From Actinomycetota bacterium (GTDB taxonomy: Bacteria > Armatimonadota > SYMT01): a stretch of 32,959 nt of DNA. The notes beneath the pieces were generated by a model that saw nothing but the letters and a program-made list of their open reading frames with translations, was not told where the DNA came from and did no database searches. Location of the stretch: the NCBI GenBank assembly GCA_005798285.1, contig SYKE01000264.1, forward strand, positions 1-32,959, read 5' to 3'. Shown in pieces: positions 3,684 to 5,458 of the stretch. The position numbers and the translations under genes are program-made. How positions within the stretch are numbered: the first letter of the stretch is position 1; each line of letters begins with the position of its first letter.

Positions 3684-4205
3684 ATGAAAGCCTGGTATGC
3701 GGTCCACACATACTCCGGACATGAGAACAAGGTCAAGACCAACATCGAACGGCGCTCCAAGTCGCTGCGACTCGAGGATCGGTTCGGACGGATTCTCGTT
3801 CCCGTTGAGGAAGAGCAGCGCAACCGCAACGGACGCAAGACCACGATCAAGCGCAAGGTGTTTCCTGGGTATGTGCTCATTGAAATGGAATTGGATGAGC
3901 AGACCTGGTACCTTGTAAAGAACACCATCGGGGTAACCGGATTTGTCAGCAGCGGCAACAAACCTGTGCCGCTGCTGGATCGTGAAGTCAACGACATCCT
4001 CGAGGCGCTCGCAGACGGCGGAGTGAAGACCAGGCCGACGTGGCAAAAGGGTGAAGTCATTCGCGTTACGACCGGGCCATTCGCCGACTTCAACGGTTCC
4101 ATCGAAGAAGTGAACGGCGACAAGCAGAAGGTCAAGGTCCTCATCTCCATCTTCGGCCGAGATACGCCGGTGGAGTTGGACTTCAATCAGATTGAGCATG
4201 TGTGA
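3684..4205 (+). CDS. nusG: Transcription termination/antitermination factor NusG
   Basis: MKAWYAVHTYSGHENKVKTNIERR...FPGYVLIEMELDEQTWYLVKNTIGVTGFVSSGNKPVPL, and KOW region GEVIRVTTGPFADFNGSIEEVNGDKQKVKVLISIFGRDTPVELDFNQIE. Confidence 0.98.
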   Translation: MKAWYAVHTYSGHENKVKTNIERRSKSLRLEDRFGRILVPVEEEQRNRNGRKTTIKRKVFPGYVLIEMELDEQTWYLVKNTIGVTGFVSSGNKPVPLLDREVNDILEALADGGVKTRPTWQKGEVIRVTTGPFADFNGSIEEVNGDKQKVKVLISIFGRDTPVELDFNQIEHV

Positions 4206-4250: not shown

Positions 4251-4676
4251 ATGGCAAAGAAAGTCAAGGCGATCGTCAAGCTCCAGTGCAACGCCGGAAA
4301 GGCGACACCGGCCCCTCCCGTGGGTCCGGCGCTCGGCCAACACGGCATCAATATCATGGAGTTTGTGAAGACCTACAATGAGCGAACGGCTTCGATGGTG
4401 GGAACGGTTGTTCCGGTCGAAATCACCATCTACGAAGACCGCTCCTTCACGTTTGTCACCAAGACGCCGCCTGCGGCGGAACTCTTGAAGAAGGCTGCTG
4501 GGGTCAAGTCGGGCTCGGGCGCCAACAAGAAGACTAAGGTTGGGAAGATCACCGAGGCACAGCTTCGTGAGATCGCGCAGACCAAGTTCCAGGACTTGAA
4601 CGCGAACGACATGGACGCAGCGGCGAAGATCATCGCCGGTACGGCGCGCAGCATGGGGATTGAGATCGTCGGCTAG
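4251..4676 (+). CDS. rplK: 50S ribosomal protein L11
   Basis: [38 protein letters not shown]; 141 aa; synteny. Confidence 0.98.
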
Positions 4677-4696: not shown

Positions 4697-4732
4697 GTGG
4701 GAGGCCCCTCTCTCGGGGCCGACATCTACCAC
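4697..4732 (+). promoter_or_regulatory. Putative ribosomal protein L1 mRNA-binding site (rRNA-mimic hairpin) upstream of rplA
   Basis: GTGGGAGGCCCC-TCTCTC-GGGGCCGACATCTACCAC: outer helix GTGG/CCAC, asymmetric internal loop GA/GACATCTA, inner helix GGCCCC/GGGGCC. As I recall the 23S L1-binding region, it has a similar GUGGGAG...ACCAC arrangement. Confidence 0.65.
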
Positions 4733-4747
4733 AGGAGCAAACTGGAA

Positions 4748-5458
4748 ATGGCAAAGCGAAGCAAGCGATACGCCGCCGCAGTGGCGGGTCTGGATGTCGA
4801 AGCGGTTTACGAACTCGTCGACGCCATCTAGTTGGTTAAGAAGACGGCGAACGCAAAGTTCAACGAAACCGTAGAAGTCGCAATTCGATTAGGTGTCGAT
4901 CCCCGGCATGGGGACCAAATGGTTCGCGGAACTACGAATCTTCCGCATGGTACCGGCAAGGTGCGTCGTGTAGCGGTTTTTGCGAAGGGCGACAAGGCCG
5001 AGGAGGCTCTGGCAGCCGGCGCGGATGTCGTGGGAGATGCCGACCTGATCACCCGGATCCAGCAGGGGTGGCGCGAGTTCGACCTTTTGATGGCGACGCC
5101 GGACCTGATGCCGCAAATCGGTCGTGCGCTGGGCCGCACGCTCGGACCGCGAATGCCCAGTCCTCGGAGCGGCACAGTGACCAACGACATCGGCAAGGTG
5201 GTTCGCGACGTCAAGAGCGCCTCCCGTGTGGAGTATCGTGTCGAGCGGGCAGGTATCGTTCACATGCCGATCGGCAAGGTCAACTTCACCACCGATCAGT
5301 TGGTTGAGAATTTCTACGTACTGCTGAATGCCCTGCTGAAGGCTCGGCCCTCTGCAGCGAAGGGCCGCTACGTGAAGGCGGTCTCCATCTCTTCGACGAT
5401 GGGTCCCGGGTTCCAGATTGACGGCCAGAAGGCGCAGTCCACCGCCGAAAAGCTGTAG
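4748..5458 (+). CDS. rplA: 50S ribosomal protein L1, interrupted by an in-frame TAG at 4829-4831 (codon 28)
   Basis: Reading from ATG 4748: [80 protein letters not shown]... Frame and homology continue on both sides of TAG. The total of 236 codons including TAG fits bacterial L1 (234 aa in E. coli). The track reports only the part after TAG, starting at TTG 4832. Confidence 0.95.

Follow-up and report, generated by a model that had tools for sequence, protein, structure and literature searches.

Does the in-frame TAG within rplA, the gene for ribosomal protein uL1, mean that this genome reads UAG in an unusual way, that translation restarts inside the gene, that the gene has recently been broken, or that a single base of the sequence is wrong? 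The window (the whole 32,959-nt stretch of DNA analysed here) belongs to a draft Armatimonadota genome of 5.04 Mb in 326 contigs that is 69.1% complete, and most of its best matches among public contigs come from Armatimonadota metagenome bins. The rplA frame runs for 27 codons from ATG 4748 to the TAG, which TTG adjoins; 207 more codons then lead to the final stop, TAG 5456-5458. The features of the region are as follows.

3684-4205, + strand: nusG-like ORF, intact; read by eye from sequence and from gene order (secE-nusG-rplK-rplA)
4251-4676, + strand: rplK (ribosomal protein uL11), intact, with TAG as its stop; TIGR01632, 207 bits
4697-4720, + strand: GTGGGAGG and a GC hairpin in the rplK/rplA gap, likely an L1-binding (autoregulatory) site; motif present in relatives
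4733-4737, + strand: AGGAG, Shine-Dalgarno site of ATG 4748 (5/6 match, spacing 9-10 nt)
4748-5458, + strand: rplA (ribosomal protein uL1) frame with one interruption; matched by profiles, and the sole PF00687 match in the genome
4829-4831, + strand: TAG at L1 residue 28, where Glu is commonest in relatives; placed by alignment with them
4832-4834, + strand: TTG, a doubtful putative restart codon; mostly Leu in relatives

One stop codon within a conserved rplA

The part of the frame 3′ of the TAG passes the rplA_bact equivalog model TIGR01169 (score 271 bits, cut-off 216; profile positions 27-225 of 227), which places the product in uL1 by a curated bacterial model, and it holds the whole Pfam L1 domain (PF00687 1-198). 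With the TAG read through, alignment to bacterial L1 proteins of known structure covers the whole frame, beginning at residue 1. The 27 residues 5′ of the TAG are genuine L1 sequence that can be aligned in relatives G001, G002 and others, and the locus is thus one gene split by one stop rather than two neighbouring genes. The initial annotation had described a TAG inside rplA with TTG adjoining and homology intact on both sides, and our results confirm that description. In sequence, in position after rplK and in full-length alignment, the gene resembles any bacterial rplA (TIGR01169/PF00687), from which it differs in that the frame from the conserved start is interrupted by TAG at codon 28. 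Directly 3′ of the GRALGRTL stretch, the read-through frame carries the motif GPRMPSP. This form (GP[KR]MP) is two residues shorter than the usual bacterial L1 motif GPRGLMP and is shared by 23 of 109 relatives’ loci, among them those of the closest relatives and of other Armatimonadota.

The surroundings of the gene are likewise those of a normal rplA, with ORFs read as secE, nusG and rplK preceding it in the usual order. The hairpin at 4697-4720 carries a motif that we take to resemble the L1-binding site of 23S rRNA, and in 55 of the 109 relatives a GTGGGAG motif lies within the 150 nt that precede the L1 start. An Rfam search for an L1 leader at the hairpin gave no match. L1 autoregulatory sites are known before rplA in several phyla (PMC10931766), and the GTGGGAGG hairpin is likely another such site.

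Comparison of rplA among relatives, a check that the initial annotation had proposed, returned a sense codon at residue 28 throughout, with no internal stop in the aligned L1 region of any of the 109 loci. Glu, encoded by GAG or GAA, is the usual residue (53 of 109), in agreement with the earlier view that the TAG occupies a Glu-like position; Ala (17), Asp (14) and Lys (12) follow, and the remaining relatives carry Ser, Asn, Thr or Gln. The nearest relative found belongs to the same family, and its L1 is identical at 79% of the residues after the stop; none of the relatives is of the same genus. At the 46 positions conserved in at least 95% of relatives, the L1 of this genome deviates at none, and these positions gave no sign of the additional lesions or relaxed constraint that mark a decayed pseudogene. 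Divergence in the 27 codons 5′ of the stop is about the same as among the relatives themselves, with pN of 0.33-0.48 in pairs that include this genome versus 0.36-0.47 in pairs that do not. Since the start codon, the Shine-Dalgarno site, the L1-binding motif and the 46 conserved positions are all intact, we see no lesion but the TAG, and since a long-dead gene would look otherwise, the change must be very recent if it is real at all.

The interrupted gene could also be a pseudogene whose intact counterpart is missing from the assembly. A search of the 5.04 Mb assembly with PF00687 for a second rplA, which the initial annotation had likewise advised, found none, although an assembly that is only 69% complete leaves room for a hidden copy. 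Against this, the interrupted copy occupies the conserved rplK-rplA operon together with its regulatory site and has no other damage, and nearly all relatives with a match have a single rplA. We consider a hidden intact copy very improbable.

Reading of UAG in this genome

Recoding of UAG, whether through amber suppression, pyrrolysine or reassignment of TAG, also produces a TAG inside a conserved frame. Here, in contrast, RF1 is present and intact with its PVT motif, and loss of RF1 was rejected as an explanation. TAG is a normal terminator, found at the end of 217 of the 702 long ORFs counted across 1.63 Mb, and none of the 29 tRNA genes found in the 69%-complete assembly has a CUA anticodon. 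Internal stops were absent from all 41 ABC-transporter domains and all 15 protein kinase domains, and lone internal TAGs in other genes and in rplA stand in for Glu, Trp and Phe rather than for a single amino acid. On the intact RF1, the common use of TAG as a terminator, the lack of a UAG-reading tRNA among those found and the uninterrupted conserved domains, we rejected genome-wide recoding; general recoding of TAG is excluded as far as the draft assembly allows, and the judgement in the initial annotation that general reassignment is unlikely holds.

For two RF00005 matches that the standard mode of ARAGORN left untyped, manual reading gave a tRNA-Lys(CTT) at a contig end and a degenerate tRNA-Gly(CCC). 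The latter overlaps a ‘Pyl(CTA)’ call made by ARAGORN in intron mode, which requires a 107-base intron and is not credible. A search with PF00472 matched RF1 only; that the draft has no RF2 match is probably due to incomplete assembly.

Recoding might instead be local, with a UAG-reading tRNA inserting Glu or another residue at the rplA TAG. Such a suppressor tRNA, which the initial annotation had recommended searching for, could sit in the approximately 31% of the genome missing from the assembly, and the same genome apparently uses UGA recoding for selenocysteine. The intact RF1, the many genes that end in TAG, the tRNA genes found, the stop-free ABC-transporter and kinase domains and the mixture of residues at lone TAGs nonetheless weigh against suppression, to which we assign only a marginal chance.

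Selenocysteine recoding shares with this locus a stop codon inside a conserved frame, but it involves TGA at Cys positions, whereas the rplA codon is TAG at a Glu position. In this assembly, in-frame TGA codons occur at apparent Cys positions of a peroxiredoxin, a TlpA-like thioredoxin and two AhpD-like (CMD) proteins, encoded by the following genes.

L210, 11577-12089, − strand: TGA-containing redox gene
L226, 13919-14416, + strand: TGA-containing redox gene
L236, 11029-11991, − strand: TGA-containing redox gene
L214, 8348-9280, − strand: TGA-containing redox gene

A selA gene at G000:C20:10515-11882 (G000 being this genome) and a tRNA-SeC call with a UCA anticodon (selC-like; in L126) occur on one contig, and an overlapping ARAGORN tmRNA call there is probably spurious. 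From selA, the selC-like tRNA and the TGA codons at Cys positions, the genome probably makes selenoproteins.

The adjoining TTG as a restart codon

Ribosomes that terminate at the TAG might restart on TTG 4832, giving a working L1 of 208 residues that lacks the N-terminal 28. The TTG directly adjoins the stop, and the frame that it opens carries the entire Pfam L1 domain (PF00687 1-198). The sequence upstream of TTG 4832, however, has no Shine-Dalgarno site, its best match to AGGAGG being 3/6 as opposed to 5/6 before ATG 4748, and the stop-start arrangement occurs in none of the 109 relatives’ loci. In most relatives the position next to residue 28 is Leu, and the TTG is therefore an ordinary codon for a conserved Leu of L1 rather than a start acquired for the purpose.

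The product itself would also be an odd one. It would begin midway in the conserved stretch A-(I/L)-E-L-V-K, and the part that it loses belongs to domain I, the RNA-binding domain of L1, which includes the N-terminus (PMC10931766). The initial annotation had likened this short L1 to archaeal L1 proteins, a comparison that did not hold: archaeal L1 is about 14 residues longer at the N-terminal end, and the TTG product would miss these residues. Archaeal L1 chains (4v4n, 9srb, 1cjs) align from their own residues 8-10 at query residues 22-23, and position 17 of the archaeal L1 NCBIfam model corresponds to residue 3 of the TTG product. Because it would lack a Shine-Dalgarno site, start inside a conserved stretch, fall about 14 residues short of archaeal L1 and lose part of RNA-binding domain I, a working short L1 from the TTG is unlikely on this sequence evidence, and we regard reinitiation as very improbable.

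Sequence error or recent mutation

We scanned the assembly for other lone stops by a six-frame coding comparison, which supersedes a coding-potential scan that was swamped by antisense frames. The resulting count is a lower bound, since the stricter scan misses the rplA stop and the laxer scan ranks it low. A TAG takes the place of the Trp of relatives inside a DUF1549 gene, with a PF07583 match of 285 bits running through the stop, and another lies inside a DUF1801 gene (PF08818) where one relative carries Phe. A deiodinase-like gene (PF00837; L210 19026-19988, − strand) has one TGA that, by eye, is not at a Cys position. When we searched with the DUF1549 domain of one protein, a stop interrupted one of 59 matches in this genome versus none of 64 in the closest relative. 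The residues at these lone stops vary from case to case, as expected of errors or random nonsense mutations and not of a change in the code. Given the other lone TAGs in conserved domains, the rplA TAG looks like part of the background of this assembly.

Among the options that the initial annotation listed without choosing, reinitiation lost ground with the missing Shine-Dalgarno site and suppression with the lack of a UAG-reading tRNA among those found, and an error or an isolated nonsense mutation is favoured. We put the probability at about 0.6 that the TAG arose in the consensus of a draft metagenome-assembled genome, either as an error or through uptake of a minority variant; this figure and the other gradings given here are judgements, not computed values. 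The single lesion, the sense codons in relatives, the intact RF1, the tRNA genes found, none of them UAG-reading, and the other lone nonsense codons all form the basis for this reading. The TAG would then be a single altered base in an rplA that is normal in all else, the consensus having taken up a wrong base or a minority variant, and the living population would most likely have a sense codon at position 28 and make full-length L1 from ATG 4748. We infer that it is the assembly that has the wrong base, rather than the cell. Our search of the literature on errors in metagenome assemblies found nothing directly applicable. Counting against an error, the other interrupted genes of the assembly are accessory genes and could be true pseudogenes.

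The rplA sequence itself does not separate an error from a fresh mutation. If the nonsense mutation were real and recent, the population would lack full-length L1, or make traces of it by natural read-through, and would tolerate this loss since L1 is nonessential in some bacteria. TAG is one base away from GAG, and the remainder of rplA is undecayed, as expected of a young mutation. A passage of PMC9670183 that cites Akanuma et al. 2012 gives L1 as nonessential in B. subtilis, where its loss slows growth and impairs 70S formation, and it is this dispensability that makes a real nonsense mutation possible. All 109 relatives examined nevertheless keep an intact L1, a strongly conserved protein, and so costly a mutation is less likely than an error to be the consensus of a wild population. 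We place a real mutation second among the explanations, with perhaps a quarter of the weight. Lone nonsense codons that enter draft genomes through consensus errors or recent mutations share with the rplA TAG the single-base change, the lack of any other lesion and the presence of further cases in the assembly; the difference here is that the gene encodes a ribosomal protein, and a real mutation would be costly.

We give little credence to a TAG that is real and fixed, with the internal stop setting L1 output and L1 made either where ribosomes read through UAG at this one site or where they restart on the TTG. Were the stop real and fixed, this rplA would be unusual in nature as a core ribosomal protein gene that carries a nonsense codon, and would test the extent to which wild bacteria can do without L1 or translate past UAG. 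If the TAG is instead an error or an isolated mutation, it has little import beyond annotation of the gene as rplA with a possible assembly error.

Several other candidates emerged from the search for lone stops. L156 and L207 matched no Pfam family and were left uncounted, as was the BNR-repeat candidate L228, in which the match either starts after the stop or ends before it. L240 2060 (TAG) and L264 517 (TAA) are similar copies of a repeated, possibly Rhs-like protein, and each stop corresponds to Gln in the other copy. DUF1549 (PSCyt2) has about 60 matches in this genome and in G001 alike, a large paralogous expansion that the other relatives searched lack or have to a smaller extent.
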